In this document: positions 24,122 through 49,426 of the stretch, in pieces
Layout of the letters: the number at the start of each line of letters is the position of its first letter
Numbering within the stretch: position 1 is the first letter of the stretch
Position numbers and translations under genes: made by a program
The notes under the pieces: generated by a model
Seen by the model: the letters and a program-made list of their open reading frames with translations, nothing else
Database searches by the model: none
Told to the model about the DNA's origin: nothing
DNA from: Iamia majanohamensis
GTDB lineage: Bacteria > Actinomycetota > Acidimicrobiia > Acidimicrobiales > Iamiaceae
Direction: 5' to 3'
DNA: 64,000 bases
NCBI RefSeq assembly: GCF_028532485.1
Contig: NZ_CP116942.1
Span: 496,001-560,000 of the forward strand

Positions 24122-25578
24122 GGCGGCTCAACGGCGAGGACGACGGGTTCTTCCACATGGACCTGCCCAACCAGCCCATGACCACGATCAGCGTGGCCAC
24201 CCTCCGCCCCCCGTCCGGGCCCGACGGCTCCCCGCGGCCCATGGCGCTGGCCGACCTGCGGGCCCACGTGGCCGCCCGCCTCGACGAGCTGCCCTCGTTC
24301 CGCTGGCGGGTGCTCCCCGTGCCGGGCCAGCTCCACCACCCCGTGGCCGTGCGCGACCCCGAGTTCGACCTCGACTTCCACCTGCGGGAGCTGACCCTGC
24401 CCGCCCCCGGCACCGAGGCCGAGCTCGACGCCGTGGTCTGCGACCTGGCCTCCCGCCGCCTCGACCGCCGCCACCCGCTCTGGCAGCTCCACCTCGTCCA
24501 CGGCCTCGCCGACGGCCGCCAGGCCCTGGTGACCCGCACCCACCACCTGCTCATGGACGGCACCGCCGCCCTCTTCACCTTCTCCCGGCTCTACTCCGCG
24601 ACCGACCACGAGGTGGTGGTCCCCGAGGAGGTCGAGGGGCCCTGGGCCCCCGAGGCCCTGCCCCGACCCCGGCGCCTGGTGGCCGACGCCCTGCGCGACC
24701 AGGGCCGCGACCTCCGGCGGCTCCCCGGGCTGGTGCGCCGCAGCTGGCGGGGCTTCCGGGCCGTCGACGAACGGGCCCAGACCTCCGACGTGGAGGTCCC
24801 GGCCCCGGTGAGCGGCACCGAGGCGTGCTCGCTCAACGACGCCTTCACCGCGGCGCGGGCCTGGACGCCCGTGGCCCTGCCGCTGGCCGACGTGAAGCGG
24901 GTGAAGGACGCGGCCGGCGCCAGCCTCAACGACGTCGTCCTGGCCGTCGTCGCGGGGGCGTTCCGCGGCTACCTGCTGGCCCGCGACGACCTCCCCGGCC
25001 GCCCCCTCACCTGCAGCGTCCCGGTCGGCATGGAGCCGCCCGACGCCCCGCCCCGCCAGACCGGCAACTGGTTCGGGAGCCTCACCACCTCGCTGGCCAC
25101 CGACGTGGCCGACCCCTGGGCCCGGCTGGCCGAGATCAGCCGGGTGACGGCCGAGGCCAAGGTGCGCCACGAGCTGCTGGGCGAGTCGCTCCTGCCGGAG
25201 TGGCTCGACATCATCCCGCCGTTCGTCACCGCCTGGGGGGTCCTCGGCCACAACCGGGGCCGCGCCGCGAACCGGGACCAGGCCGACGTCAACGTGCTGG
25301 TGTCCAACCTGCGCGGTCCCCGCGAGCGCTGGCACCTCGGCGACGCGCTGGTCGAGGACCTCTACCTGAGCGGCCCGCCCAGCAACGGCGTGGGCTCCAA
25401 CGTGATGGTCTGGAGCTACGGCGACCGGCTCATGTTCGGCATCCGCTCCTTCGCCGACTCCCTCGACGCGCCCGACGAGCTCCGACGCCGCCTGCACGAG
25501 GCCCTCGCCGAGCTGGTGGCACGCGCCGCCGAGGCCGAGGTGGAGGCGGAGGCCGCCTCGGTCGACGCCCCCGTCTGA
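24118..25578 (+). CDS. WS/DGAT wax ester/triacylglycerol synthase 2
   Basis: A 486-residue paralogue of the preceding protein. The motif here is THHLLMDGTA with the first His near residue 142. RRHPLWQLHLVHG, SLNDVVLAVVAGAFR and VSNLRGPRE are conserved family blocks. ATG 24118 overlaps the previous stop (ATGA), so the two are translationally coupled and may act together or differ in acyl preference. The pair lies 0.9 kb from a convergent lipid-megasynthase operon, and its products or substrates could be linked to that pathway (inference). Confidence 0.93.
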   Translation: MRRLNGEDDGFFHMDLPNQPMTTISVATLRPPSGPDGSPRPMALADLRAHVAARLDELPSFRWRVLPVPGQLHHPVAVRDPEFDLDFHLRELTLPAPGTEAELDAVVCDLASRRLDRRHPLWQLHLVHGLADGRQALVTRTHHLLMDGTAALFTFSRLYSATDHEVVVPEEVEGPWAPEALPRPRRLVADALRDQGRDLRRLPGLVRRSWRGFRAVDERAQTSDVEVPAPVSGTEACSLNDAFTAARAWTPVALPLADVKRVKDAAGASLNDVVLAVVAGAFRGYLLARDDLPGRPLTCSVPVGMEPPDAPPRQTGNWFGSLTTSLATDVADPWARLAEISRVTAEAKVRHELLGESLLPEWLDIIPPFVTAWGVLGHNRGRAANRDQADVNVLVSNLRGPRERWHLGDALVEDLYLSGPPSNGVGSNVMVWSYGDRLMFGIRSFADSLDAPDELRRRLHEALAELVARAAEAEVEAEAASVDAPV

Positions 25579-25739: not shown

Positions 25740-26501
25740 GTGGGATGGCTCGAGCGGCTGGCGGGGCGGGTGGGGTCGGTGGGCCAGCGGACGAGCGGGC
25801 GGCCGACCTCGTCGAACCGGGCCTCGTCGTCCCACCTGGCCTGGGTGTGGGACGGCCCCGAGCCCGACCTGGTCGCGGTGGCCGCCACCCTCACGGTGGT
25901 CGAGCCGCCCTCGGTGGACGCCCTCCACTTCTGGGCCCTCCAGGCGTCGTTCCTCGAGGGCCCGGCGCCGGGTCGGCGCCACGGCGGCGGCCACACCGGC
26001 CTCCAGTGGCACCCCGGCCACCCGGGCGGCACCGCGGTGAACTGGGGCGGCTACGGCGCCGACGGCCGCGAGCTGGACGGGACGACGAGCCCGCTGCCGT
26101 CGGCCACCGGCAACGCCAACACCCGGGACCTGGCCTGGGCGCCGGGGCGTCCCCACCGCCTGGCGATCCACCGGGGACGGGAGGGGTGGGCGGCCTCGGT
26201 CGACGGGACGCCGATCCGTGAGCTGCACGTCGGCGGGGACCGCCTCGGCTCGGTGCTGGTCTGGTCCGAGGTCTTCGCCCGCTGCGACGACCCGTCCTCC
26301 GCGGTGCGCTGGAGCGACCTGGAGGGCACGACCCGGGGCGGGGCGACGGTCCGGCCCGTGGCCGTGGCGACCCGCTACCAGTCCGTCCCCGACGGCGGCT
26401 GCTCCAACACCAGCTCCGACGCCGACGGCACCGGCGGTGTGGTGCAGCGCACCAACGTGGGTCGCACCACCCGTCCCGGGACCCGCCTTCCCCTGCGGTA
26501 G
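25740..26501 (+). CDS. Hypothetical protein, possible jelly-roll fold
   Basis: A 253-residue soluble protein, not firmly recognised. It is rich in Gly, Trp and aromatic residues in a beta-strand rhythm (FWALQASFLEGP, GLQWHPGHPGGTAVNWGGYG, HRLAIHRGREGWAASVDG, VRWSDLEG). This resembles ConA/LamG-like beta-sandwich proteins, perhaps DUF3472-like, but the match is not certain. There is no signal peptide. GTG 25740 is the only practical start; no Shine-Dalgarno is clear. It converges on the COQ7-like gene with a 9-base gap. Confidence 0.6.
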   Translation: MGWLERLAGRVGSVGQRTSGRPTSSNRASSSHLAWVWDGPEPDLVAVAATLTVVEPPSVDALHFWALQASFLEGPAPGRRHGGGHTGLQWHPGHPGGTAVNWGGYGADGRELDGTTSPLPSATGNANTRDLAWAPGRPHRLAIHRGREGWAASVDGTPIRELHVGGDRLGSVLVWSEVFARCDDPSSAVRWSDLEGTTRGGATVRPVAVATRYQSVPDGGCSNTSSDADGTGGVVQRTNVGRTTRPGTRLPLR

Positions 26502-26510
26502 GGGACGGGC

Positions 26511-27023
26511 TCAGGCGGCGGGCGGCGGTCGCCAGCCGAGCACGCGGGCGGCGACGGGCAGCAGCGGGTGGTGGACGATGAGGCTGCCGAAGTAGCGCTC
26601 GTGGCGGGCCTCGGTGGCGACCATCTCCTCCAGCTGGGGCACGTAGCGCCCGAGCCCGGCCCGGGCGGCGTGGTGGGCCGCCTGCTCGTACTGGCCCACG
26701 TTGGCCGCCTCCAGCCGCCCGGCGGCGTAGACCGGCCCGAACCAGCCGCCGACGAAGCAGAGGCCCCCGAAGAACCGGCCGATGCTCCACATCAGCGCCT
26801 CCCGCCACCGCTGCGGGCCGTGGCCCAGCTCGGCCAGGATCTCCCCGACCATGCGTCGGTGGTGCCACTCCTCGGCCTCGATGCGGCGGATCTCGGCCCG
26901 GGCGTCGGCCCGCCGGGAGCGCCACAGCGAGCGCCAGTGGCCCCGGTAGGCGTGGGCCGCGGCCAGCTCGCCCGAGTAGGCGGCCTGGAGGACGGCGACG
27001 ACGAAGGCCCGGTCGGTGGCCAC
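26511..27023 (-). CDS. COQ7/ferritin-like diiron protein
   Basis: A 170-residue four-helix protein. Carboxylate/His positions typical of a diiron site appear in order: Glu19 in SGELAAAHAY, EAEEWHH at 49-55 (ExxH), a Glu in the third helix (QYEQAAHH) and VATEARHERYF (ExxH) in the fourth. The helix FGGLCFVGGWFGPVYAAGRLEA is hydrophobic, as in membrane-associated COQ7. COQ7 hydroxylates demethoxyubiquinone, but actinobacteria generally use menaquinone, so another substrate is likely. It follows the glycosyltransferase by 152 bases in the same direction and could hydroxylate the lipid made by that operon (inference). Start is GTG 27023; no better start exists upstream. Confidence 0.75.
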   Translation of the reverse strand: MATDRAFVVAVLQAAYSGELAAAHAYRGHWRSLWRSRRADARAEIRRIEAEEWHHRRMVGEILAELGHGPQRWREALMWSIGRFFGGLCFVGGWFGPVYAAGRLEAANVGQYEQAAHHAARAGLGRYVPQLEEMVATEARHERYFGSLIVHHPLLPVAARVLGWRPPPAA

Positions 27024-27175
27024 GTCGGTGGCGTCGGGCGGGGCCAGGTCGGCGGCGTCGGCGATGGGCCCATCCTCGCACCTGGTCCAGGCGCGGCCCG
27101 GGCCGGGGCGTCACCGGCCGAGCGGCGCCACCTGGCCCCTCCGGTCGGCGCAGGCCGGCGGACCCCCCCGGGTCC

Positions 27176-28351
27176 TCAGCCCGCGGCCAGGTCCTCGACC
27201 AGCGCCGCCGCCTCGGGGGTGCCCCCGGCGGCGGCGAACGACGCCGCCACCCGCTCGGCGCCGGCCCGCAGGTCGGGCTCGGTGAGCGCCCGCTCCACCG
27301 CAGCGCGCAGCCCGTCGGGGCGGACCCGGCCGAACTTGATGCGCACGCCGGCGCCGGCCTGCACCACCTGGTCGGCGATGATCGGCTGGTCGTCGCGGAT
27401 GGGCGCCAGGACCATGGGCCGTCCCGCCGCCAGCGACTCGCACACGGTGTTGTGCCCGCCGTGGGACACCGCCGCGTCGACCCGCTCGAGCAGGGCCAGC
27501 TGCGGCACCCGCGGGCGGACCAGGACGTTGGGCGGCGGGTCGGGCACCAGCTCCGGCGGGGCGACGAGCACGGCCCGGGCGTCGAGGGTGGCGAAGGCCT
27601 CGGAGGCGGCGGCCCAGAACCGGGCCCCGGCGTCGGCGTTCACCGTGCCCAGCGACACCAGCACCCCCGGGGCGTCGCCGGCCAGGTGGTCCCACGGGAA
27701 GCCGTCGACGTCCTCCACCCGGTCGGCCACCGACGGGCCCACGAAGCGGACCTGGGGCGGGAAGGGGCCGTACGGCCCGACCAGGGCCTCGGTGGTGAAG
27801 GCGAGCACCAGCTGCGGCGACACCACCAGGTCGTGGCCCCGGGCCGTGGCCTCGTCGATGCCGGCCTCCACCTGCAGGGCGACCAGGCGCTCGTCGAGCC
27901 ACCGCTTCACCTGGGGCAGGGCGTCGAGGGGGCGGGTGAGCTGGGCCGAGGTCGTGGCCGAGGTGGCCCACCGGCGTCCCTGGCGGAGGGCGACCACCGC
28001 ACCGGCCAGGGCCTGCTGGTCGCTCACCACCACGTCGGGGTCGAGGACGTCGACGACCTCCTCGAGGCCGGGGCGCATGTGCGACGCGAGGGGCAGGAGC
28101 ACGTCCTCCCAGAGGAACCTGAGGGCGGCCGCGCCCCGGACCCCGTGGCCCCGCTCGGTGACCTCCTCGACGGTGCCGCCCATGTCGCCGGTGCAGGGGG
28201 CGAAGGGCGTCCCCGGGGGGAGCAGGGGGGCCACGGCGGGCACGCCGGTCCAGGTCACGTCGTGGCCCCGCCGTCGCAGCTCGGCGCCGAGGGCGACGGT
28301 GGGGTTCACGTGCCCGGTCAGCGGGGGCACCACCACCAGCACCCGGCTCAC
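27176..28351 (-). CDS. MGT-family (GT1) glycosyltransferase
   Basis: A 391-residue GT-B glycosyltransferase. The N-terminus VLVVVPPLTGHVNPTVALGAELRRRGHDV contains the His used as catalytic base in UGT/OleD-type enzymes (GHVNP). The C-terminal sugar-nucleotide domain has VLVSLGTVN, VDAAVSHGGHNTVCESLAAGRPMVLAP (the PSPG-like HGG motif) and DDQPIIADQV. It should transfer a hexose from UDP- or dTDP-sugar to a hydroxyl of a small lipophilic acceptor. GTG 28351 overlaps the hydrolase stop by four bases, so it is translated with the megasynthase operon and probably glycosylates its product. Confidence 0.93.
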   Translation of the reverse strand: MSRVLVVVPPLTGHVNPTVALGAELRRRGHDVTWTGVPAVAPLLPPGTPFAPCTGDMGGTVEEVTERGHGVRGAAALRFLWEDVLLPLASHMRPGLEEVVDVLDPDVVVSDQQALAGAVVALRQGRRWATSATTSAQLTRPLDALPQVKRWLDERLVALQVEAGIDEATARGHDLVVSPQLVLAFTTEALVGPYGPFPPQVRFVGPSVADRVEDVDGFPWDHLAGDAPGVLVSLGTVNADAGARFWAAASEAFATLDARAVLVAPPELVPDPPPNVLVRPRVPQLALLERVDAAVSHGGHNTVCESLAAGRPMVLAPIRDDQPIIADQVVQAGAGVRIKFGRVRPDGLRAAVERALTEPDLRAGAERVAASFAAAGGTPEAAALVEDLAAG

Positions 28352-29181
28352 GTCGGGAGCCCGCCGTGGTCCCGGAGCCACGCCACCAGCTCGGTGCGCA
28401 GGCGGGCGGTCTCCTCGGTGAGCAGCGAGTGGGTGCGGTCCGCGACGATGCGCAGCTCGCAGCCGGGCACGTGGCGGGCCAGGGCCTCGCCCCGGTCGAG
28501 GACGTCGGACTCGCTGCCGTAGAGGGCGACGGTGGGGCAGGTGATGGCCTCCAGCCACGCCGTGGGGGTGATGGCCTCGGACTCCAGGTCGGCGATGAGG
28601 CTGGTGCGCAGGAACAGGTGCTCGCTGTGGCGGGCCAGGCGGTTGACCCGGCGCCCGCCCTGCTCGGCCAGCCACTCCTGGACCACGTCGCGGTCGAGGC
28701 CGAAGGCGGCGAAGGCGAGGCTGGCGGCCATGTGGTCGCCCCACCCCTCGGTGGCGAAGTGGGCCTCGACGAGGAACAGGCTGGCCACCCGCTCGGGGTG
28801 GTGGTGGGCCAGGTGGAGGGCGAGCAGGCAGCCGTAGCTGTTGCCCACCAGGTGCACCGGTCGGTCCAGGCCCCAGTGGTCGAGCAGGGCCACCAGGTCG
28901 GCCAGGTTGTCGCCGACCGTGTAGCCCTCGTCGGGCGTCTCGGACCGGCCGTGGCCGCGCATGTCGTAGAGGAAGACGTCGGCGCCGGCCTGGGCCACGG
29001 GGGCGGCGAGGGTCATGTACCAGCTCGACAGGTTGTCGATGATGAGCCCGTGCAGCATCACCACGGCGGGGCGCGGCCCGTCCGCCGGCGGGTCGCCCCT
29101 GCCCCGCAGCACCGAGGTGTTGAGCCGCACCCCGTCGACCACGACCTCAGGCACGGCGGTGCTCCCGGGCGCGCCGGCCAC
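28348..29181 (-). CDS. Alpha/beta hydrolase, probable chain-release thioesterase
   Basis: A 277-residue alpha/beta hydrolase. The oxyanion segment VVMLHGLIIDNLS, nucleophile elbow GNSYG (Ser115), acid GSESD and DRTHSLL (His) form a complete triad. LYDMRGHGRSETPDEGYTV is typical of esterases and thioesterases. It lies five bases after the ACP gene and four bases overlap with the glycosyltransferase, in an operon whose synthases carry no thioesterase domain. Releasing the finished acyl chain is therefore a reasonable role, though ester hydrolysis or transacylation is also possible. Start GTG 29181. Confidence 0.88.
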   Translation of the reverse strand: MAGAPGSTAVPEVVVDGVRLNTSVLRGRGDPPADGPRPAVVMLHGLIIDNLSSWYMTLAAPVAQAGADVFLYDMRGHGRSETPDEGYTVGDNLADLVALLDHWGLDRPVHLVGNSYGCLLALHLAHHHPERVASLFLVEAHFATEGWGDHMAASLAFAAFGLDRDVVQEWLAEQGGRRVNRLARHSEHLFLRTSLIADLESEAITPTAWLEAITCPTVALYGSESDVLDRGEALARHVPGCELRIVADRTHSLLTEETARLRTELVAWLRDHGGLPT

Positions 29182-29186
29182 CGGCC

Positions 29187-29483
29187 CTAGGGCTGGACAC
29201 CGGAGCGCTCCAGGAAGGCCACCACCTCGCCCACGGTGAGGGTGATGAGGTCGTCGAGCTCCATCTCGGCCAGCCAGCCGATGAGGTCGACGTCCTCGCC
29301 GTGGCGCTCGGTGATCTTCTCGGCCAGGGCCACGAACTCGATGCTCTCGAGCTCGATGTCCTCGGCCAGCGAGGAGTCCAGCTCGACGTCGATCCCGATC
29401 ATCTCGTCCTCGCCGATGATCTCGGTCAGCATCGCCCGGACCTCGTCCAGGAGGGCGGTGGTGCGGTCAGAGGGTCCAGGCAA
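29187..29483 (-). CDS. Free acyl carrier protein
   Basis: A 98-residue acidic ACP. The phosphopantetheine Ser47 lies in DIELESIEFVALAEKITERHG, where the usual DSL is replaced by ESI. That substitution resembles discrete ACPs and the DSI of PUFA-synthase ACPs rather than the FAS AcpP. TTG 29483 lies inside the end of the upstream synthase gene (17-base overlap), so coupled translation is likely; ATG 29432 would start too late. It could accept the chain from the second synthase or serve the hydrolase step. Confidence 0.88.
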   Translation of the reverse strand: MPGPSDRTTALLDEVRAMLTEIIGEDEMIGIDVELDSSLAEDIELESIEFVALAEKITERHGEDVDLIGWLAEMELDDLITLTVGEVVAFLERSGVQP

Positions 29484-32400
29484 CGACGTGCTCCTTGGGG
29501 TCGTGTCCGGGGGCGGCGAGCGCCACCCGGTCGGTCGCGACGAGGCGGTCGCCGATGCGGAGGACGGGGGCCCGGGGGGCGCCCAGGCCCTCCGGGGCCG
29601 AGCCGTCGACCACCACCTCGGTGACCTCGAAGTCCTGCGGACGGCCCTGGAGCCCGGTGCCGGCGGCCTTGGCCGCGGCCTCCTTGGCCGCCCACACGGT
29701 GGTGAGGAACTGGTCGCGGTCGCCGTCGAAGGCGGTCGCGAAGGCGGCCTCGGCCGGGGTCAGGGCGGTGGTCTCGAAGGAGGCCGAGCGGGCCTCCACC
29801 ACCTCCACGTCGATGCCGACGTCGACGCCCTCGCGCACGAGGGCCACGCCGATCCCGGTGGTGTGGGCGATCGACACCCGCAGGTCGGCCGGGTCGGGAC
29901 CGGTCACGAGGGGCCGTCCGGCCTCGTCGTTGGCCACCTGGACCTCGATGGGGAAGGTGGGCCCGTGGCCCTGGTCGCGCCGCCAGGCGCGCACCGCGTC
30001 CTTGGCCGCCACCCGCCCCAGCAGCCAGCGGCGCTGGGCGTTCGGGTTGCGCGCCTCGTACTGCACCCGCTCGTCGCGCCCGAGGAAGCGGCGCATCACC
30101 ACGTCGCGGGTGGCCGTGTCGACCCATCCCTCCCGCACCAGCACCCAGCCCCCGGGCATGGGCTCGGCCAGCAGCTCGTGCTGGGGTCGCCGCAGCATGA
30201 GGAACAGGTGGTCGTCGGTGGTGAAGCGGCGGTCCTCCCACTCCCTGATGGTGCACCACACCCGGCCGTCGACGGTGAGCTCCAGGTCGGCCCGCACGGT
30301 CTTGTCGTCGATGTGGGTGAGGTTCACCACGCAGTCGACGAGGGTGCCGGGTGGGGGGAGCGGGCCGTGGAGGGCGATGCGCTGGAGGGAGGTGGGCAGG
30401 ACCAGGCGGTCCCCGTCGACCCGCCAGGCGGCCCAGAACCCGAACAGCTGGCCGGCGTTGTCGAGCAGGGCGCCGGGTGCGGACTGGCTGACGAGGACCC
30501 CGGCGACGCCGTCGGCGGCGGAGCGGGTGAACTCCTTGACGCCCTGGTAGGCGGGGCCGTGGAAGAGGTGGCGCTCCCGGTAGAGGCCCTCGGCGTCGGC
30601 CGGCAGGTGGACCTCGCCGTGGAGCGGGCGGGCGGCCGGGGCGGGCGGGTCCGGGTAGTCGGGGGCCACCACGACCACCGCGCTGGTGTGGCCGTCGACG
30701 CCCGCCTTGACCAGGGTGGCGCCGTCGCGCTCGCCCACGACCGTGGCCCGGATGGTGGCCGTCACCGGAGGGGCGACCGCCAGCCAGCGGAAGGCCCGGA
30801 TGTCCTCGATGGCGATGGCGACGGTGCCGGGCACCAGCCGGCAGGCGGCGTCGGTGAGCATCTCGACGATGCCGGTCATGGGCACGAGGGGGAACAGGTC
30901 GGTGGTGTCGGCCCACCCCGGGGGCTGCTCGAAGAACGCGTGGTCGAGCCAGTGGGGCTGGTCCTCGACCGAGAGGTGCACCTCCTCCACCAGGGTGGGC
31001 GGGCCCTCGGGCGCGCCAGCGGCCGGGGCGGGCTCGGTGGTGGCCGGCGGGGCGGTGGGCCCCGGCGGGGGCGGGCCGGGGTCGGTGGCCGCCGCCGGCG
31101 CCGCCGGCCGTCGGCCCCGCGCCGAGCCGGGTCCGAGGGCCTCCAGCACGGTGCGCGCCGCGGTGGCGCTCTCGGCCACCGCGGTGCGGTACTCGTCGAC
31201 CAGGGGCGCGGGGGTGCCGTCGCCGGCCAGCTCGGCCAGGGCGCGGTCGAGGTCGTCGCCCCGGCCCGCGTCGACGGTGGCGCGGTCGAGCGGCTCGAGG
31301 CCCCGGACCAGCCGGGTGCCGAGGGCGAGGCGGAGGCCGGGGCGGTGGGCCGCGGCGGCGGCCCGGGCCGGGCGGGGGAGGGGACGGAGGCGGACGGGGT
31401 CGACCGCCGCGCCCTCGGCCCACAGGGCGGCCGCCACCCGGCGCAGCTGGTCCATGCCCCGGTGCTTGGGCGACGCCGCGGCCAGGGCCACGTAGGGCTC
31501 GTCGCGCAGGGTGTCGTCGACGAACCCGGTGAGGCTCCCCACCCCCATCTGGACGAACACCCGCACGTCGGCGTCGTGGAGCACGCCGACGAGGGTCCGG
31601 AACCGCACCGGCTCCAGGAGGTGGCGCACCGACAGGGCCCGCACCTCGTCGGGGTCGTCGGGGTAGGGGGCGCCGGTGGTGGCCGACCACATCGGGGTGT
31701 GGGGGGTGCGCAGGGGGAGGTCGCCGAAGTCGCGGGCCAGGCCCGGCACGTAGGGCTCGAAGAGGGGGGAGTGGAACCCGGACCGGAAGGGCAGCTCCTG
31801 GGCCAGGACCTTGCGCTCCTGGGCCCGCCCGGCCACCACCGAGGCGGCCTCGACCGTGCCGCACACGATCGACTGGTGGGGGCAGTTGTCGTGGGACAGG
31901 TGGGCGTCGTCGAGACCGTCGACGAGCTCCTCGGCCACCTCGGCGCCGGCCCCGAGGGCGAGGTACGTGACGCCGGGGACCTCGACCGACCCCGGGCGCA
32001 GGCGGTCGAGGAAGGCGTCGACCTCGGCGTCGGGGATCATCCCGGAGGCGATCTGGCCGGTCCACTCGCCCAGGCTGTGGCCGGCCATCACGTCGGCCGG
32101 GGCGCCGAGGGCGGCCACCGCGTCGCTGAGCAGGCGCCCCACCGCGAAGATCCCGCGGCTCTGGGCCTCGAGCGGGGTGGCCCCCCGGGGGGTCTCGGGC
32201 AGGGTGCGGCCCAGGTGGGCGGCCACGTCGTCGACGCGCGGGTCGAAGGCGACCTCGACGCCGGGGAACAGGTAGGCGAGGCGCCCGCCGCCGGTGAGGA
32301 GCCCCTCGGGGGCGAACCAGACGTCGCTGCGCCCGTGGAACGGGCGGCCGCCCTCGAGCACCCGCCGGGCCAGGGCGACCTTGCGCTCGGTGGGCTCGAC

Positions 32401-33993
32401 GATCGCCAGGCGGCACGGGCCCTCGCCCTCGACGGCGGGGGCGGCGGTGGGGTCCCACGCCTCGAGCCGGGCGCGCACGTCGGCCGGGTCGCGGCCGGCC
32501 AGGGCCAGCACCGACCCGGGTGCGGGACCACCCGTCCCCGTGCCGACCACGGCCCCGCGGGCGGTGCCCGACGACGGACCGGCCGGCACCGGGTCCGGGC
32601 GCGACGACGGGTGCTCCTCGAGCACCAGGTGGGCGTTGATCCCGCCGAAGCCGAAGGCGTCGACGCCGGCCACCCGCAGGCGGCCGTCGGGGACCTCCCA
32701 GGGCTCGACCTCGCCGATGGTGCGGAAGCGGGTGGTGGCCAGGTCGGGGTGCGGGTCCTCGACGTGGAGGGTGGGGGGCAGCACGCCGTCGTGGAGGGCC
32801 ATGGCCGTCTTGGCCAGCCCGGCGGCGCCCGCCGCGGCCATGGCGTGGCCGATCATCGACTTCACCGAGCCCAGCCCGGCGCGGGGCCCGTCGCCGGCGG
32901 GGCCGAAGACCTGCGCCAGGGTCGCCAGCTCGACGCCGTCGCCGGTGGGGGTGGCCGTCCCGTGGGCCTCGACCAGACCGACGGAGGCCGGATCGAGGCC
33001 GCTCTCCCGCCAGGCCTGCTCCAGGGCTGCGACCTGGCCGGAGACGTCGGGGCTCATGAGCGTGGCCGACCGGCCGTCGCTGGCCACGCCGGTGCCCCGG
33101 ATCACCGCGTAGATGTGGTCGCCGTCGCGCTCGGCGTCGGAGAGGCGCCGCAGGGCGAACACGCCAGTGCCCTCGCCGATGAGGATGCCGTCGGCGGCCC
33201 GGTCGAAGGGGCGGATGGCCTCGGCGCGGCTGAGGGCCCCCAGCTGGGTGAAGACGCTCCACAGGGTGACGTCGTCGCAGTGGTGGGTCCCGCCCGCGAG
33301 CACCAGGTCGCAGCGCCCGGCGCGCAGCTCGTCGCAGGCCCGGCCCACCGCGATGTGGGCGCTGGAGCAGGCTGCGTCGACGGTGTAGGCCGGGCCCCGC
33401 AGGTCGAGGCGGTTGGCCACCCGGCTGGCGGCCAGGTTGGGCACCAGGCCGATGGAGGTCTCGGGGTGCTCGGGGCCGAGGCGGTCGAGGAACCCCTCGC
33501 GCACCCGGGCCAGGTCGTCGGGGCCGAGGTCGGGCAGCAGCTCGGCCAGCGAGGTGACCAGCTGGTTGGCGGTGCGCACCCGCTGGTCGAGGCGGGCCCC
33601 TGCCGGGTTCAGGTAGCCGCCCTTCCCCAGGACCACGCCGATGCGGGTCGGGGCCAGCCGCTCGTGGGGGTCGCCGGCGTCGGCCAGGGCGGCGGCGGCC
33701 GCGGCGAGGGCGAGGAGCTGGTCGGGCTCGGCGTCGGCCGCGGCCACGGGCATGATGCCGAACGCGGTGGGGTCGACCTCGGCCACGTCGTCCACGAAGC
33801 CGCCCCGCCGGCAGTAGAAGGCGTCGGCGCCGCTGCGGTCGGGGTCGAAGTAGAGGTCGTCCCACCGGGTGGGCGGCACCGTGCTGGTCGCATCGACCCC
33901 GGCCCGGACGTTGCGCCAGAACGCGTCGATGGTCGGCGCCCCCGGGAACAGGCCCCCCATGCCGACGATGGCGATGCCCTCGGCGCCGCTCAC
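29467..33993 (-). CDS. PUFA-synthase-like PKS: KS-AT-DH-PPTase
   Basis: A 1508-residue iterative type I synthase. KS (1-450): AIVGMGGLFPG, Cys209 in VDAACSSA, EAHGTATPTGD, SMIGHAMAAAG. AT (~545-830): YLFPGVEVAFD and Ser640 in AGHSLGEW. After a Pro/Ala linker comes a dehydratase-like double hotdog (~980-1290): HWLDHAFFEQP with His1018 and FPLVPMTGIVEML. The C-terminus (~1330-1508) is an Sfp-type phosphopantetheinyl transferase: VGIDVEVVEA and WAAKEAAAKA. This resembles PfaB/PfaC-type parts of PUFA synthases with the PfaE transferase fused on. GTG 33993 is preceded by GAGGGA six bases upstream. It lies 76 bases after the first synthase gene. Confidence 0.92.
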   Translation of the reverse strand: MSGAEGIAIVGMGGLFPGAPTIDAFWRNVRAGVDATSTVPPTRWDDLYFDPDRSGADAFYCRRGGFVDDVAEVDPTAFGIMPVAAADAEPDQLLALAAAAAALADAGDPHERLAPTRIGVVLGKGGYLNPAGARLDQRVRTANQLVTSLAELLPDLGPDDLARVREGFLDRLGPEHPETSIGLVPNLAASRVANRLDLRGPAYTVDAACSSAHIAVGRACDELRAGRCDLVLAGGTHHCDDVTLWSVFTQLGALSRAEAIRPFDRAADGILIGEGTGVFALRRLSDAERDGDHIYAVIRGTGVASDGRSATLMSPDVSGQVAALEQAWRESGLDPASVGLVEAHGTATPTGDGVELATLAQVFGPAGDGPRAGLGSVKSMIGHAMAAAGAAGLAKTAMALHDGVLPPTLHVEDPHPDLATTRFRTIGEVEPWEVPDGRLRVAGVDAFGFGGINAHLVLEEHPSSRPDPVPAGPSSGTARGAVVGTGTGGPAPGSVLALAGRDPADVRARLEAWDPTAAPAVEGEGPCRLAIVEPTERKVALARRVLEGGRPFHGRSDVWFAPEGLLTGGGRLAYLFPGVEVAFDPRVDDVAAHLGRTLPETPRGATPLEAQSRGIFAVGRLLSDAVAALGAPADVMAGHSLGEWTGQIASGMIPDAEVDAFLDRLRPGSVEVPGVTYLALGAGAEVAEELVDGLDDAHLSHDNCPHQSIVCGTVEAASVVAGRAQERKVLAQELPFRSGFHSPLFEPYVPGLARDFGDLPLRTPHTPMWSATTGAPYPDDPDEVRALSVRHLLEPVRFRTLVGVLHDADVRVFVQMGVGSLTGFVDDTLRDEPYVALAAASPKHRGMDQLRRVAAALWAEGAAVDPVRLRPLPRPARAAAAAHRPGLRLALGTRLVRGLEPLDRATVDAGRGDDLDRALAELAGDGTPAPLVDEYRTAVAESATAARTVLEALGPGSARGRRPAAPAAATDPGPPPPGPTAPPATTEPAPAAGAPEGPPTLVEEVHLSVEDQPHWLDHAFFEQPPGWADTTDLFPLVPMTGIVEMLTDAACRLVPGTVAIAIEDIRAFRWLAVAPPVTATIRATVVGERDGATLVKAGVDGHTSAVVVVAPDYPDPPAPAARPLHGEVHLPADAEGLYRERHLFHGPAYQGVKEFTRSAADGVAGVLVSQSAPGALLDNAGQLFGFWAAWRVDGDRLVLPTSLQRIALHGPLPPPGTLVDCVVNLTHIDDKTVRADLELTVDGRVWCTIREWEDRRFTTDDHLFLMLRRPQHELLAEPMPGGWVLVREGWVDTATRDVVMRRFLGRDERVQYEARNPNAQRRWLLGRVAAKDAVRAWRRDQGHGPTFPIEVQVANDEAGRPLVTGPDPADLRVSIAHTTGIGVALVREGVDVGIDVEVVEARSASFETTALTPAEAAFATAFDGDRDQFLTTVWAAKEAAAKAAGTGLQGRPQDFEVTEVVVDGSAPEGLGAPRAPVLRIGDRLVATDRVALAAPGHDPKEHVVAWTL

Positions 33994-34069
33994 CCGTCGT
34001 CCCTCGCAGCGTCGCACGGACCCCGCCGCATGGGGCGGGGACGCGTCCGACGTCGGTGGGGGTGCACGG

Positions 34070-37000
34070 TCAGGCGCCGGCGACGGGGAGGCCGGCGGCG
34101 GCGAGGGCGGCGGCCCCGTCGGGGTCGAGGGCCTCGGGGGTGGAGCGCATCACCACCACCTGGGGCGCACCGTCGCCCGCGGCCAGCTCGGCCAGCAGGG
34201 CGGCCACGCCCTCGGAGGGGTCGACGAGGCCGATGCCCCGGCGGGCGTACTCCCGCTCCAGCTCCGGCGACACCATGCCGCCGCCGGCCCAGGGGCCCCA
34301 GTCGACGGCCACGACCCGCCGGCCCGCCCGGTTGGCCCCCTCGGCCAGGCGGTCGAGGGCGTCGTTGGCCGCGCCGTAGTCGGTCTGGCCCCGGTTGCCG
34401 AACACGCCGCTGATGCTGCCGAACAGCACCACGAAGCGCGTGCTGTCGGGGGCGGCGGCGAGCAGGGCCCGGGCCGGGTCGACCTTGGTGGCGAACACCC
34501 GGGCGAAGGCCTCCGGGTCCTTGTCCGCCAGCAGGTGGTCGTCGAGGATCCCGGCCCCGTGGACGATGCCGTCGAGGCGGCCGTGGCGCGCCACCACCTC
34601 GGCCACGAGGGCGGTGAGCCCGGCCCCGTCGCGGACGTCGAGGCTGTGGTACTCGACCTCGACGCCTGCCTCGGCCAGCCCGGCCAGGGTGGCCCGGATC
34701 TGGCGGTCGGCGAGGGTGCGGCGCACGGCGGCCTCCACCTCCGGCAGGGAGGTGACCTCGCCCAGGCCCACGATCGCCTGGCGCAGGGCCGGGGCGTCGG
34801 CGGCCTCCGCGAGCCGCGGGTCCTCGGGTCCGGGCAGCGGCGAGGACCCCACGAGGACGAGGCGGCAGCCCGTGGCCGCCCCCAGGGCGGTCGCCACCGA
34901 GGCGGTGATGCCGCGGGCCCCGCCGGTCACCAGGACCACGGCCCCGTCGCCGAGCGAGAGCCCGTCGCCGTCGCCCTCGCCGTCGAGGTCGCGGGCGACG
35001 ACGCGCCGGGCCCGCCGGCGCCCGTCGCGCCACACCACCTCGACCGGTCCCCGGTCGTCGGCCAGCTCGGCCACCAGGGCGGCGGTGAGGTCGTCGGGGT
35101 CGACCGGCCAGGTGTCGGGATCGACCTCCACGGCGCGGACCCGCGTGGCGGGCGCCTCGCGGTGCACGGCCTTGAGCAGCCCGGCGAGGCCGGTGGCCCC
35201 GCCCGACCGCACGACGCCGAGGAGCCGGCGGGGGGCGCCGAGGGCGGCGGCGGCCACCGCGGCGAAGGCGTCCCGGGCGTCGGTGCCGGGGTCGAGGTCG
35301 GTGAGCACCACGACGGCGTCGACCGCGCCGAGGGCGGCGTGGGCGGCCTCGGCGTCGTCGGCGGCCACCTCCACGACCTCGGGGCGGGCACCGCGCCCGG
35401 CCAGGGCGGTCTCCAGCAGCCCGGCCAGGGTGGCCGGTCCCCGGTCGCGGTCGGGCCCGGCCGGGACCACGAGCGCCACCCGCTGGCCCCCCAGGTCTGC
35501 CGGGTCGGCCACGGGGCCCAGGTCCACCAGCTCGACCTCGTGGCGCAGGGCGCCGGGCGGCACCGGCGGTCCGTCGGGCGCGCCCTCGTCGTCGGCGGCG
35601 GGGGCCGCTTCCGGCGCCTCCCCGGCGCCGGGGTCGTCGGCGGAGGCGTCGATCCAGGTGACGATGGCGCGGAGGCTCTTGAGGGCGGCCAGCTCCTCGA
35701 CGACGGACTCGTCGATGGCGTTGCCGGCGGCGCCGAGGCCGATGGCCTCGGCCAGCTCGCCGATGATCTCGATGCGCTTGATGGAGTCGATGGAGAGGTC
35801 GGCCTCGAGGTCGAGGTCGGGGTCGAGCATGTCGACGGGGTAGCCGGTGCGGTCGCTGACCAGCTCGAGCACGACGGTCAGCAGGGCGTCGCCGGTCGGC
35901 CGGGCGGCGGCGGAGGCCGGGGGGGCCGGCACCGCGTCGGGGGCGCCGAGCAGGTCGGCGGAGGCGTCGATCCAGGTGACGATGGCGCGGAGGCTCTTGA
36001 GGGCGGCCAGCTCCTCGACGACGGACTCGTCGATGGCGTCGCCGGCGGCGCCGAGGCCGATGGCCTCGGCCAGCTCGCCGATGATCTCGATGCGCTTGAT
36101 GGAGTCGATGGAGAGGTCGGCCTCGAGGTCGAGGTCGGGGTCGAGCATGTCGACGGGGTAGCCGGTGCGGTCGCTGACCAGCTCGAGCACGACGGTCAGC
36201 AGGGCGTCGCCGGTCGGCCGGGCGGCGCGGGTCGGGGCTGCCCCCTGGTCGTCGGCCGCCGGGGTGGCGGTGGCCACCAGCGCCGCCGGAGACGCCCCCT
36301 CGACCGGCCCCAGGGACGGGCTGGCCGTCACGGGGGCGCCGAGGTAGCCGAGCATCACGTCGCGCTCGGCCGCCACCAGCTCGCGCACGCTGCGGAGGTA
36401 CTCGAGCACCGCCTGGTCGGCGCCGGCCGAGGGCGGGGCCCCGCCGAGGGCGCCGAGGGAGAGGGTCGGCATGGTGTCGGCGGGCTGGAGCCCACCGGCC
36501 ACCGGTCGACCGTCGGCGGTGCGGGTGAGCATGCCGTCGACCTCCCACCCCGGGGTGGGCGCGGGCAGGGCGCGGGTGCTGAGCAGGCGGGCCCGCCCTG
36601 CGAACAGCGGGGAGGCGTCGACGGGCACACCCAGGGCGGCCAGCTCGGCCAGGGCGAGCAGGAACCGTGGCAGCCCCGCCTCGCCGGCCACGTCGGTGGC
36701 GACCATGTGGTGGGGGCGGTCGCCCAGGACGTCGGCCACCTGCTGGGTGAGCACCCGGCCGGGCCCGGCCTCGACGAAGACGCGCGCGCCTGCCTCGTAC
36801 ATGGCCTCGACCTGGTCGACGAAGCGGACGCCCTCGGCGACCTGGCGGCCCAGCAGGTCCGGCACCTCCGACGCGTCGCGGTACGGGGCCGCGGTGACGT
36901 TCGACCACACCGGGAAGGCCAGCTCGCCCACCTCGGCGCGGTGCACCGCGTCGCGGAGCTGGGAGCCGGCCGAGGCGACCAGCGGGCTGTGGAAGGCGCA

Positions 37001-40000
37001 GGCCACGGGCAGGAGCTTGGCCTTGGTGCCCTCGGCGGTCAGGGCCTCGACGGCGGCCTCGACCGCTGCGGTGGGCCCGGAGAGGACGGCCTGGGTCGGT
37101 CCGTTGTGGTTGGCCACCACCACGCCGGGCCAGGCGTCGAGCCGGCCCTCCAGCGCGGCGCGGTCGAGCCGCACCGCGGCCATGGCGCCGGCATCTCCGC
37201 CGCTCGCCGCGATGGCCTCGGTGATGGCCTCGCCCCGGGTCCGGCTCAGGTCGAGGAGGGTGGCGTCGTCGAACGCCCCGGCCGCGGCCAGGGCGGCGAG
37301 CTCGCCGTAGCTGTGCCCGCCGGCCATCGCCGGTGCCACGCCGACCTGGCCGAGGAGGCGGGTCATCGCCAGCGCGGCCATGCCCAGGGTGGGCTGGGCC
37401 ACCTGGGTGGCGGTCAGGGCCTCGCGCTGGGCGGCCCGGGCCTCCTTGCCGAAGGCGGCGGGGGGCAGCATGAGTTCGACCCACCGACGCCCCGTGCGGA
37501 GCACGTCGCGCAGCTGCGGGAAGGCGACGAAGAGGTCCCCCAGCATCCCCGGGCGCTGGCTCCCCTGGCCCGGGTAGAGGAAGGCGACGGTGGGCGGCGC
37601 GGCCTCGTCGACCTCGGGGCCGGCGACGAAGACGCCCGGGCGGTCGGTGCCGGCGAGGGCGGCGCGCAGGCCGGCGGCCAGGTCGGCCAGGTCGGAGGCG
37701 ACCACCGCGGTGCGGACGGGCCCCTCGCCGGCGGCGCACGCGGTGCGGGCCACGTCGCGCAGCCGGTGGCGCTGGCCCCGGGGGTCGGCCTCGACGATGC
37801 GGTCGACCAGGTCGGCCAGCTCCGCGGTGCGGGTGCGGGCCTCCTCCGCGGAGGCGCCCCGGACGAGGACCAGCTCCGCCGGCCACCGGTCGAGGCCGTG
37901 CGGTGCCACCTCCGCCTCCGCGGCGGACACGATGGCGTGGAAGTTGGTGCCGCCGAAGCCGAAGGCGCTCACCGCGGCCCGGCGCTCGTCGTCGAGCCAG
38001 GGCCGGGCGGTGTCGAGCAGGCGGAAGGGGCTGGTGGCCGGGTCCCAGTAGGGGTTGGGGTCGACCACGTTGAGGGTGGGCGGCAGGACGCCGTGGTGCA
38101 CGGCGCGCACCGCCTTGATGAGCCCGGCCAGGCCGGCGGCGCACTTGGTGTGGCCGATCTGGCTCTTCACCGAGCCGACCACGGCGGAGCCGGGGGCCGA
38201 CCCCTCGGCCGCGTAGAGCTCGGTGAGGGTGGCCAGCTCGGTCCGGTCGCCCACGACGGTGCCGGTGCCGTGCGCCTCGACCAGGCCGATCTCCGCGGCC
38301 GAGCGCCCCGACCGGGCCAGGGCCCGGGTCACGGCCCGCTGCTGGCCCTCCTTGCGGGGGGCGGTGAGGCCGAGGTGGCGGCCGTCGCTCGACCCTGCGA
38401 CGGCGTCGAGCACGGCGTAGATGCGGTCGCCGTCGCGCTCGGCGTCGGCGCGGCGCTTGAGGATGACCGCGGCGATGCCCTCGCCCAGGGCGATGCCGTC
38501 GGCGTCGCGGTCGAAGGTCCGGCACTGGCCGGTGGGCGAGAGGGCGTGCACCGACGCGAAGAGGAGGTAGTCGTTGAGCCCGTTGTGGAGGTCGGCGCCG
38601 CCGCAGACCACCAGGTCGCTGCTGCCGCTGACGAGCTCCTTGGCCGCGGCGTCGACGGCGGCGAGCGACGAGGCGCAGGCCGCGTCGAGGGTGTAGTTCA
38701 CCCCGCCCAGGTCGAGGCGGTTGGCGATGCGCCCGGCGATGACGTTGGTGAGGACGCCGGGGAAGGAGTCCTCGGTGTAGGCGGGGAGGTGCGCGTCCAG
38801 CTCGGGCGGGAGGTCGCCCAGGACGGAGGGGAAGTAGGCCCGGAACCCGTAGGCCCCGGCCAGGTCGTTGCCGCTCTCGGCGCCGAAGACCACCGACGCC
38901 CGGTCGCGGTCGAACTCCCGGGTGGCGTAGCCGGCGTCGGCCAGGGCCCGGGCGGCCACCTCGAGGCTGAGCAGCTGCACCGGCTCGACCGCGGCCAGCG
39001 ACGCCGGGGGGATGCCGTAGGCGAGGGGGTCGAAGCCGATGCGGTCGAGGAACCCGCCCCAGCGCGACGGGGTCTTGCGACCGGCGTCCCGCGTGACCGC
39101 CTCGGGGTCGTAGTAGGTGTCGACGTCCCAGCGCTCGGCCGGGACCTCGGTGATGCTGTTGACGCCGCCGACCACGTTGGCCCAGAAGGCGTCGGCGTCG
39201 GGGGCGCCGGGGAAGAACGACGCCATCCCGACGACGGCCACGTCGAGGGGGGCGGGGCCCTCCGGGCGGTCGACGGCGCGCACGGGAGCGGTGCCGGCCA
39301 CCGCCTCGACGACGTCGACGCTGCCCTCGGACACCGAGCGGTGCAGCTGCTCGACCGAGGAGACCTCGCAGTGGACCGTGGCCACCTCGCCGATCATGAA
39401 CATGCCGTCGCGGCGCTGGGCCGCGTCGTCCAGCTCGACCAGGTGGTCGCCGTCGCGGGTGAGGCCCTTGGACGCCATCCGGAGCCGGCCCAGGTTGAGC
39501 GTCTCCAGCTCGGCCCAGCGGGCCTGGGCCTCGACGCCCTCGGCCTCCAGATCGTCGCGACGGGCGCGGAAGGCGCGCACGTAGTCGGTCTCGACGCAGC
39601 GGGTGGCGTGGCCGGGGGCGGTCTCGAGCAGCACCGTGCGGGTGCAGCCCACCGCCACCTCCTGGAAGGTGGGGGTGATGGCGCCGCCGGCGACGGCCTC
39701 GGGGGTGAACAGGTAGGCGGTCCCCATGAGGGCCCCCACGTGGGCGCCGCGGGCGGCGAGGGGGGCCGCCGCGGTGGCGGCCATGGCGCCGGAGCGGGCG
39801 TCGTGGATGCCGCCGGCGAGCAGCACGTGGAGCGAGGACGGGTCGTCGTCGGCCAGCAGGCGCTCGATCTGCGCGTCCCACAGGGAGAAGCTCGACCGGG
39901 GCCCGACGTGGCCGCCGCACTCGCGCCCCTCGAAGACGAAGCGACGGGCGCCGTCCTTCAGGAAGCGGTCGAGGAGGCCGGGGGAGGGCACGTGGAGGTA

Positions 40001-41278
40001 GGTCGCGATGCCGGCGTCCTCGAGGGGCCGGGCCTGCGACGGCCGGCCCCCGGCGATGAGGGCGACGGGCGGGGCCACGTCGTGGACCGCCTCCAGCTGG
40101 GCCTCGCGCACCTCCGGGGGGACGAAGCCGAGGATGCCGACGCCCCACGGGCGGTCGCCCAGGCGCTCGGCCGTCTCGGTCAGCAGGTCCCGCACCTCGG
40201 ACCCGCCCATGAGGGCCAGGGCGAGGAACGGGAGGGCGCCGCCCTCGGCCACCGAGGCGGCGAAGGCGGCCCGGTCGCTGACCCGGGTCATGGGGCCCTG
40301 GGCGAGCGGGTGGCGGGTGCCGTGGCTGGCGGCCACGCCGTGGCCGGAGGCCAGCGGCTGGTGGGTGCGGGCCGCCTCCAGGTGGGACCGGACGGCGGTG
40401 GTGACCGCCTGCACCACGCCGCCGACGGTGCCGAAGCGGCGGGCGAAGGACTCGGCCGCGGCCCCGTCGGCGCCGATCGGCAGGAGGTCGTCCCGGAGGT
40501 CGGGGCCGACGCGGGCGGCGACCTCCTCCGGCGTGGTGGTGTCGGGGAGGGTCGCCACCTCCAGGTCGGGCCGGGTGAACAGGCGGTGCCCGCCGACGAC
40601 CCGGGTCTCGCTGCCGTCCATGGCCGCGACCGCGGCGCGGGCCTCGTCGCCGAGGGCCGACTCCCGCACCAGCGCGAGCTGGCCGTCGAGCACCACCCCG
40701 GCGGCCCCGCCGGCGACGGCTGCGGCGGCCGAGTGGAGGCCGATGCCGCCCCAGGCCCAGACCGGCACCGCGGGGTCGAGGTCGGCGCGGAGCTGCTGGA
40801 GCAGGATCGACGACTCCACCTCGCCGATGCGCCCACCGGCCTCGGACCCCACGCCGAGCACGCCGGTGGCCCCGGCCTCCACGGCGGCGACTGCAGCCGT
40901 GCGGTCGGTGACCTCGGCCAGCACCTCGCGGCCATCGGCCGCGGCGACGACGGCGGCGATGCCGGCGCGGACCTCGTCGAGCGCGGCAGCGCGCGCCGCG
41001 ACGACGACGGGCCCGCGCGCCTCGGGGACGGTCGTCAGCCCGTCGGTCAGCCCGTCGACGTCGCCCAGGCCGATGCGGAGCCCGACCAGAGCGGGGTCGG
41101 CCCGCCGCACGGCATCGCCCCCGCCGGGCCCGGGGGGGCCGGACCGGAGGTCGAGGAGCCCGACGGCCCCGGCGCGGGTGGCCGCGACGACGAGGTCGGG
41201 GTTGGCCCGGCCGACGGGGTCGGATGCGATGACCAGGGCCGGTGCGGCCTCGGGGCGGGTGGTGTGCGACGTCCCCAT
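34070..41278 (-). CDS. PUFA-synthase-like PKS: reductase-KS-AT-ACP-ACP-KR
   Basis: A 2402-residue megasynthase. Residues ~1-290 look like a TIM-barrel half (GGIGLHSAAAAVAGGAAGVVL); ~300-640 form a nitronate-monooxygenase/PfaD-like FMN reductase (PLAQGPMTRVSDRAAF, EGRECGGHVG near 450). KS ~678-1110: Cys868 in LDAACASS, EAHGTGT, SQIGHTKCAAG. AT ~1190-1500: FLYPGQGSQRPGM, Ser1323 in GGHSYGE. Two ACPs carry Ser1726 and Ser1832 in SIDSIKRIEI, the PUFA-synthase ACP signature. KR ~2110-2390: VTGGARGI, GSISG, QTDYGAAN (Tyr2301). In PUFA synthases the reductase is usually a separate PfaD; here it is N-terminal. GGGAGA precedes ATG 41278. Product unknown. Confidence 0.93.
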   Translation of the reverse strand: MGTSHTTRPEAAPALVIASDPVGRANPDLVVAATRAGAVGLLDLRSGPPGPGGGDAVRRADPALVGLRIGLGDVDGLTDGLTTVPEARGPVVVAARAAALDEVRAGIAAVVAAADGREVLAEVTDRTAAVAAVEAGATGVLGVGSEAGGRIGEVESSILLQQLRADLDPAVPVWAWGGIGLHSAAAAVAGGAAGVVLDGQLALVRESALGDEARAAVAAMDGSETRVVGGHRLFTRPDLEVATLPDTTTPEEVAARVGPDLRDDLLPIGADGAAAESFARRFGTVGGVVQAVTTAVRSHLEAARTHQPLASGHGVAASHGTRHPLAQGPMTRVSDRAAFAASVAEGGALPFLALALMGGSEVRDLLTETAERLGDRPWGVGILGFVPPEVREAQLEAVHDVAPPVALIAGGRPSQARPLEDAGIATYLHVPSPGLLDRFLKDGARRFVFEGRECGGHVGPRSSFSLWDAQIERLLADDDPSSLHVLLAGGIHDARSGAMAATAAAPLAARGAHVGALMGTAYLFTPEAVAGGAITPTFQEVAVGCTRTVLLETAPGHATRCVETDYVRAFRARRDDLEAEGVEAQARWAELETLNLGRLRMASKGLTRDGDHLVELDDAAQRRDGMFMIGEVATVHCEVSSVEQLHRSVSEGSVDVVEAVAGTAPVRAVDRPEGPAPLDVAVVGMASFFPGAPDADAFWANVVGGVNSITEVPAERWDVDTYYDPEAVTRDAGRKTPSRWGGFLDRIGFDPLAYGIPPASLAAVEPVQLLSLEVAARALADAGYATREFDRDRASVVFGAESGNDLAGAYGFRAYFPSVLGDLPPELDAHLPAYTEDSFPGVLTNVIAGRIANRLDLGGVNYTLDAACASSLAAVDAAAKELVSGSSDLVVCGGADLHNGLNDYLLFASVHALSPTGQCRTFDRDADGIALGEGIAAVILKRRADAERDGDRIYAVLDAVAGSSDGRHLGLTAPRKEGQQRAVTRALARSGRSAAEIGLVEAHGTGTVVGDRTELATLTELYAAEGSAPGSAVVGSVKSQIGHTKCAAGLAGLIKAVRAVHHGVLPPTLNVVDPNPYWDPATSPFRLLDTARPWLDDERRAAVSAFGFGGTNFHAIVSAAEAEVAPHGLDRWPAELVLVRGASAEEARTRTAELADLVDRIVEADPRGQRHRLRDVARTACAAGEGPVRTAVVASDLADLAAGLRAALAGTDRPGVFVAGPEVDEAAPPTVAFLYPGQGSQRPGMLGDLFVAFPQLRDVLRTGRRWVELMLPPAAFGKEARAAQREALTATQVAQPTLGMAALAMTRLLGQVGVAPAMAGGHSYGELAALAAAGAFDDATLLDLSRTRGEAITEAIAASGGDAGAMAAVRLDRAALEGRLDAWPGVVVANHNGPTQAVLSGPTAAVEAAVEALTAEGTKAKLLPVACAFHSPLVASAGSQLRDAVHRAEVGELAFPVWSNVTAAPYRDASEVPDLLGRQVAEGVRFVDQVEAMYEAGARVFVEAGPGRVLTQQVADVLGDRPHHMVATDVAGEAGLPRFLLALAELAALGVPVDASPLFAGRARLLSTRALPAPTPGWEVDGMLTRTADGRPVAGGLQPADTMPTLSLGALGGAPPSAGADQAVLEYLRSVRELVAAERDVMLGYLGAPVTASPSLGPVEGASPAALVATATPAADDQGAAPTRAARPTGDALLTVVLELVSDRTGYPVDMLDPDLDLEADLSIDSIKRIEIIGELAEAIGLGAAGDAIDESVVEELAALKSLRAIVTWIDASADLLGAPDAVPAPPASAAARPTGDALLTVVLELVSDRTGYPVDMLDPDLDLEADLSIDSIKRIEIIGELAEAIGLGAAGNAIDESVVEELAALKSLRAIVTWIDASADDPGAGEAPEAAPAADDEGAPDGPPVPPGALRHEVELVDLGPVADPADLGGQRVALVVPAGPDRDRGPATLAGLLETALAGRGARPEVVEVAADDAEAAHAALGAVDAVVVLTDLDPGTDARDAFAAVAAAALGAPRRLLGVVRSGGATGLAGLLKAVHREAPATRVRAVEVDPDTWPVDPDDLTAALVAELADDRGPVEVVWRDGRRRARRVVARDLDGEGDGDGLSLGDGAVVLVTGGARGITASVATALGAATGCRLVLVGSSPLPGPEDPRLAEAADAPALRQAIVGLGEVTSLPEVEAAVRRTLADRQIRATLAGLAEAGVEVEYHSLDVRDGAGLTALVAEVVARHGRLDGIVHGAGILDDHLLADKDPEAFARVFATKVDPARALLAAAPDSTRFVVLFGSISGVFGNRGQTDYGAANDALDRLAEGANRAGRRVVAVDWGPWAGGGMVSPELEREYARRGIGLVDPSEGVAALLAELAAGDGAPQVVVMRSTPEALDPDGAAALAAAGLPVAGA
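35637..36227 (-). repeat. Near-identical tandem ACP-coding repeat
   Basis: Two direct copies, 35637-35909 and 35955-36227, with a 318-bp (106-codon) period. By eye they differ at one base: T at 35722 versus C at 36040, changing Asp (GDAIDES) to Asn (GNAIDES). Only the short linkers flanking them diverge. This is far closer than independent ACP evolution would give and implies very recent duplication or ongoing gene conversion. Confidence 0.92.
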
Positions 41279-49326: not shown

Positions 49327-49426
49327 CCCGCCCACGCCCTGCTGGCGCCGACCGCCGCGGCCCGACGGTCGACAGGTCTTTGGACGTCCAAGTACCCTGG
49401 CGGCAGCGACACCAGGAGCGCCCTGC

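Follow-up and report, generated by a model that had tools for sequence, protein, structure and literature searches.

A five-gene cassette of Iamia majanohamensis joins an Ars-like synthase to a dedicated glycosyltransferase and is a candidate glycolipid pathway

What is produced by a bacterium which keeps two megasynthases, their activating enzyme and a glycosyltransferase in a single run of genes? This question is raised by a locus of Iamia majanohamensis (Acidimicrobiales), located in a stretch of 64,000 nucleotides (contig NZ_CP116942.1, positions 496,001 to 560,000; hereafter the window) of a complete 4.58-Mb genome. The original prediction, made from the nucleotides of this stretch, described a compact cluster resembling polyunsaturated fatty acid (PUFA) synthases, with a glycosylated long-chain lipid or polyketide as product. 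We re-derived open reading frames (ORFs), domains and spacings from the sequence and compared the locus with other genomes. Five genes on the minus strand, from 41278 to 27176, constitute the cassette: the synthases PKSA and PKSB, a free acyl carrier protein (ACP), an alpha/beta hydrolase and an MGT-type glycosyltransferase (Table 1). On balance we favour the reading that the cassette is a self-contained glycolipid pathway, in which an iterative, fully reducing synthase of the Ars type would build a long chain that is released and glycosylated.

The five genes recur in identical order and on one strand in 36 other loci, and the cassette is therefore not a chance arrangement. A scan with PKSA of 84,980 named genomes yielded 57 relatives, among them 29 loci with DNA spanning all five genes; to these are added five more genomes from the order of the window and two linear plasmids of Streptomyces. 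The 29 genome loci belong to Streptomyces, Kitasatospora, Nocardioides, Kribbella, Kutzneria, Actinophytocola, Virgisporangium, Actinoplanes, uncultured actinobacteria and two metagenome-assembled genomes of Myxococcales. Comparison of gene order, which had been proposed as a check for related Acidimicrobiia, bears out one co-directional, self-contained unit with a fused activator and its own glycosyltransferase, kept as five genes. The cassette is found in 7 of 395 genomes of the class and in 9 of 396 sampled from the phylum, a patchy distribution; it is absent from the one other sampled member of the window's family, and the flanking genes differ from locus to locus and are unrelated. Some neighbours recur: a class I S-adenosylmethionine-dependent methyltransferase is frequent beside the cassette (several loci), an ABC exporter is found in a few Streptomyces, and a second hydrolase is present in several loci. 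IS3-family transposases lie near the plasmid-borne cassettes (L088, 1140-2392 and 27497-28734; L096, 24984-26194), which is consistent with horizontal movement.

In the window the genes are tightly packed. A gap of 76 bases separates PKSA from PKSB, PKSB and the ACP gene overlap by 17, a gap of 5 follows before the hydrolase gene, and the latter overlaps the glycosyltransferase gene by 4, exactly as originally described. Terminator-like sites were not seen in a scan between the five genes; a promoter scan gave no sigma-70-like match and is uninformative at the G+C content of this DNA. A foreign base composition of the cassette was rejected, G+C being even across the window. Pfam and NCBIfam profiles confirmed the predicted gene order and domains, namely the dehydratase (DH), ketoreductase (KR), fused 4'-phosphopantetheinyl transferase (PPTase), free ACP, hydrolase and MGT-type glycosyltransferase. 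The attribution of ACP signatures to both megasynthases had to be narrowed: SIDSIKRIEI occurs twice, in PKSA only, so that the claim is right for PKSA and not for PKSB. PKSB also carries a second ketosynthase (KS) and a second acyltransferase (AT), which had not been mentioned before.

The enoyl reductase (ER) of PKSA had been described as an in-cis PfaD-like reductase; it is indeed in cis, but FabK-like. FabK (TIGR03151) is the sole reductase family matched by the N-terminal 660 amino acids, at residues 321-657 with a weak second match at 126-229, and the matches of the PfaD model TIGR02814 in this genome do not include PKSA. In an AlphaFold2 model (mean pLDDT 91.8) the first 660 residues form two complete eight-strand barrels, a degenerate FabK-like barrel, missing from the earlier description, preceding the live one. 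The best structural match of the pair is FabK (2z6i, Z 38.2, 312 aligned residues, 1.9 A) versus Z 33.3 for PfaD; barrel 1 modelled alone (pLDDT 93.7) again matches FabK best (Z 28.9, 264 aligned, 2.6 A). PfaD ranks under FabK in these comparisons, both belonging to one superfamily. The proposed catalytic His of barrel 2 (ECGGHVG) is kept in 36 of 36 PKSA sequences, while barrel 1 has R, P, V or A at this position, and a dead barrel 1 followed by a live barrel 2 was present in all proteins checked, including Type P synthases. This live/dead pair can be compared with the ER heterodimer of PUFA synthases from thraustochytrids (PMC13311796). A related synthase on a plasmid of Rhodobacteraceae SC52 (L090, 11002-25621) has the same live/dead double barrel; its two synthase genes are separated by those for a TauD-type dioxygenase and a methyltransferase, and it is a third variant of the layout.

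Ars synthases make saturated chains of C22-C26, used by type III polyketide synthases (PKSs), and serve the formation of cyst lipids in Azotobacter-like bacteria. A tblastn search against named plasmids led to the clusters of Beijerinckia indica pBIND02 and Methylosinus C49, and it is these Type P (ars) synthases that, judged by sequence, are the nearest relatives of the cassette synthase. The large Beijerinckia protein, which has the same live/dead barrel pair, aligns with PKSA residues 3-1582 at 42% and in addition with the ACP and KR regions; a 633-amino-acid protein (PS-DH and ACPS) aligns with PKSB 973-1460 and shows the same Pfam pair. The first ketosynthases of the cassettes (KS1) form one clade (98/96), adjoining Type P (94/94); KS1 is a neighbour of Type P in both trees, and a clade of KS1 and Type P was not rejected in the approximately unbiased test (p-AU 0.36). 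According to the survey by Shulse and Allen (PMC3098273), Beijerinckia indica is a member of Type P, which in Azotobacter yields the alkyl chain of phenolic lipids. ArsA makes C23-C25 acids which are passed to type III PKSs for phenolic lipids (PMC4824345). No type III PKS (PF00195) was matched in the whole genome of I. majanohamensis or in five further cassette-bearing Acidimicrobiia genomes, which rules out an alkylresorcinol as product there; in I. majanohamensis the chain must therefore go elsewhere.

Active sites were surveyed in 36 PKSA and 33 PKSB sequences. None of the PKSA sequences has lost the Ser, the His or the malonyl-binding Arg of the first acyltransferase (AT1), and the Ser-Tyr-Asn of KR is present in nearly all of them. 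GIDxE and KExxxK of the PPTase are found in most PKSB sequences. The second acyltransferase (AT2) has Ser and His, with the Arg lost in nearly all of PKSB. PfaB, which is without the Gln-Arg pair, has long-chain instead of malonyl specificity and is a terminal long-chain acyltransferase (PMC12895367). As the malonyl Arg is lost in the same manner, we regard AT2 as a chain-transfer domain, which by analogy with PfaB would pass on a long chain. AT2 was rejected as a domain of the PfaB family proper (TIGR02816, no match at E 0.1), the common feature being the loss of Arg only. The likeness nevertheless allows a second route, which we think unlikely: AT2 could act as terminal acyltransferase in the manner of PfaB and move the chain to an acceptor made elsewhere, on which the glycosyltransferase acts, the hydrolase then serving for editing or self-resistance. 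A glycolipid would still result, though the sugar would not sit on a free fatty acid. The retained Ser-His of AT2 and the two hydrolases of several loci agree with such a route; the missing TIGR02816 match does not, and a free ACP together with a hydrolase in every complete locus suits hydrolytic release. Homologues of the hydrolase have the nucleophile Ser in 33 of 34 and the His in 34 of 34 cases.

The two ACP domains of PKSA differ, at the DNA level (35572-35871 versus 35890-36189), by one mismatch in the last 236 of 300 aligned bases, a sign of very recent gene conversion or duplication. In many relatives there is apparently a single ACP.

Regarding the sugar-transferring step, the His and DDQ motifs are present in 21 of 21 homologues of the glycosyltransferase. 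The enzyme scores 159 bits against the MGT model TIGR01426, under the cut-off of 260, and its closest solved relatives are glycosyltransferases of antibiotics and natural products. These two findings would also agree with a sugar-bearing polyketide, such as a lactone or a chain with hydroxyls or some unsaturation, formed by reductive domains acting in some rounds only and decorated by a macrolide-type enzyme. So would the methyltransferase of several relatives and a distribution that is patchy and in places plasmid-borne, as is typical of secondary metabolism. Yet the conserved unit has no cyclase, P450 or sugar-biosynthesis genes, and an active ER in every member as well as the relation to Type P favour full reduction, so that we judge a polyketide product improbable.

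A glycosylated long-chain lipid, one of the two products named in the original prediction, is retained as the best-supported product class. It is favoured by the complete set of KS, AT, KR, DH, ER, ACP and PPTase with conserved catalytic residues. We infer the order of the reactions, the role of barrel 1 and the site of glycosylation, and the same holds for the sugar and the biological role. PKSA and PKSB would together act as a single Ars-type synthase of fatty acids or polyketides, which is of type I, works iteratively and reduces fully; its ACPs would be activated by the PPTase at the end of PKSB. AT1 would load malonyl units, KS1 (and the second ketosynthase, KS2) condense them, and reduction after every extension by KR, DH and the FMN-dependent barrel 2 would give a long saturated chain, the last rounds perhaps being left as hydroxyls. 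Barrel 1 may be a dead FabK copy standing in for the second subunit of the FabK dimer. AT2 would pass the long chain on, probably to the free ACP, the hydrolase release it from there or from the ACPs of PKSA, and the glycosyltransferase then attach a sugar, either at the carboxylate or at a hydroxyl. Some relatives may have their product tailored by the methyltransferase and exported by the ABC transporter.

Several points weigh against this pathway. No member of the cassette family has a known product, and macrolides and aromatic polyketides are also among the substrates of GT1/MGT enzymes. The place next to Type P has a support of only 94/94, in a tree built without HglE and gammaproteobacterial PfaA. 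Because KS2 is fully active and has no Type P counterpart, the chain may differ from Ars chains; a length of about C20-C26 would be expected by analogy with ArsA, the sequence itself giving no measure of it. It is the KS2-AT2 pair that distinguishes the cassette from Type P. Tentatively, and as a possibility going beyond the pathway itself, we propose that the horizontally spread cassette makes a family of glycolipids without a name so far: its synthase would contain an ER pseudo-dimer of one live and one dead FabK barrel, and its second active KS-AT pair would divert an Ars-type chain from phenolic lipid to glycolipid.

Table 1. Features of the cassette and of its surroundings in the window
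Feature	Position	Strand	Characteristics
PKSA (2402 aa)	34070-41278	-	FabK-like barrel 1 - FabK-like barrel 2 - KS1 - AT1 - ACP - ACP - KR
PKSA barrel 1	40589-41236	-	TIM barrel of FabK fold, complete but lacking the catalytic His (EAGGRIG); predicted to be inactive and to partner barrel 2
PKSA barrel 2	39359-40327	-	predicted FMN (flavin mononucleotide) enoyl reductase, FabK-like; QGPM and ECGGHVG motifs; His in 36/36
KS1	37799-39253	-	Cys-His-His kept in 36/36
AT1	36599-37594	-	malonyl type: GHSYGE, conserved Arg, AFHS
ACP domain 1	35984-36211	-	SIDSIK
ACP domain 2	35666-35893	-	nearly identical to ACP domain 1
KR	34151-35191	-	Ser-Tyr-Asn; B-type-like L(D/E)D motif
PKSB (1508 aa)	29467-33993	-	KS2 - AT2 - DH - PPTase; longer start at 34017 possible
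KS2	32584-33981	-	intact catalytic triad in 33/33; no chain-length factor
AT2	31354-32316	-	catalytic Ser and His kept, malonyl-binding Arg lost
DH	30154-30996	-	PKS-type (PF14765), His and Asp conserved
Fused PPTase	29524-30006	-	GIDVE, WAAKEAAAK
Free ACP (98 aa)	29187-29483	-	Ser of LESIEF conserved in 19/19 aligned homologues
Alpha/beta hydrolase	28348-29181	-	nucleophile Ser and His conserved; predicted release enzyme
GT1 (MGT-type) glycosyltransferase	27176-28351	-	His of GHVNP and DDQ conserved
COQ7/ferritin-like protein (170 aa)	26511-27023	-	downstream of the glycosyltransferase
WS/DGAT acyltransferase pair	22664-25578	+	tandem, overlapping; beside the cassette

The borders of the unit follow from its neighbours. 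The COQ7-like diiron protein, originally counted with the cluster, is present downstream after a gap of 152 bases, but is not a member: it is absent from all 29 complete genome loci, occurs in 4 of 148 genomes of the order, and its homologues are not near the cassette. Since this gene does not travel with the cassette, the core is 27176-41278. The WS/DGAT pair was likewise rejected as core, adjoining the cassette in one other complete locus only, where a similar pair flanks it in Nocardioides solisilvae (L009); in one more locus the pair lies 4.6 kb beyond the glycosyltransferase. An ORF of 253 amino acids with no Pfam match (25740-26501, plus strand) separates the COQ7-like gene from the WS/DGAT pair. 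Further away, a large plus-strand ORF (49181-52690) resembles by eye a fusion of acyl-CoA mutase, B12-binding domain and G-protein chaperone (IcmF type), and elsewhere in the genome, at G000:C1:257533-259253, two open frames hold a second pair of ketosynthase domains with only a distant relationship to the cassette.

Activation, elongation, release and glycosylation are all covered by five genes in about 14 kb, and the cassette can therefore be transferred into a host for direct readout. It represents a candidate glycolipid pathway that is compact, complete and movable, of low frequency in Actinomycetota and also present in Myxococcales, for which no assigned product was found. Moreover, the barrel pair offers a test of a degenerate enoyl-reductase copy as a possible built-in dimer partner.

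How does the cassette compare with known systems? A literature search, mostly without subscription papers, gave no named product and no characterised cluster with its gene order. Actinobacterial Pfa-like clusters without a product were catalogued in 2011 by Shulse and Allen; their Type M comprises members from Frankia, Actinosynnema, Renibacterium and S. avermitilis (PMC3098273). Being likewise an actinobacterial Pfa-like cluster without known product, the cassette may be this Type M.

With the Pfa (PUFA) synthases of Types A, B and D the cassette shares the broad KS-AT-ACP-KR class, the tandem ACP motif, an ER of the TIM-barrel superfamily, a DH and a PPTase, and the best NCBIfam match of PKSA is TIGR02813 (PfaA; 896 bits, under the cut-off of 1010). 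The original label of a PUFA-synthase-like cluster fits in the broad sense. In the narrow sense it is not supported: besides the FabK-like ER in cis without PfaD-family match, the DH is PKS-type (PF14765 only) with no FabA-like domain, as compared to two PF07977 stretches in the PUFA-type control Persicobacter; there is no chain-length factor, KS2 having Cys-His-His in 33 of 33 sequences and being followed by an AT; and PKSA has two ACPs versus the four or more in tandem by which PUFA synthases are recognised. KS1 stands in a separate clade, its grouping with PfaA of Persicobacter, the one PUFA-type reference, assigned by domains, being rejected (p-AU 1e-8). By sequence the synthase is placed within the broad Pfa-like class and outside the PUFA synthases, and a true PUFA synthase with an attached sugar, already disfavoured, is very hard to credit.

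The heterocyst glycolipid (hgl, Type F) islands, compared here without an HglE sequence, resemble the cassette in combining a type I synthase for a C26 chain with a dedicated glycosyltransferase, but have 12-13 conserved genes (PMC11804610) as compared to five. Closest are the Type P/ars clusters of Azotobacter, Beijerinckia and Methylosinus, with the synthases ArsA and ArsD. These clusters and the cassette both carry two FabK-like barrels, the first without His, together with KS-AT-ACP-KR in one protein, and DH-PPTase in a second. The cassette differs by KS2-AT2 in front of DH-PPTase and by its own ACP, hydrolase and GT1 glycosyltransferase, whereas ars clusters have type III PKSs between the two synthase genes. 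In the cassette the hydrolase and the glycosyltransferase occupy the place where the type III PKSs would act.

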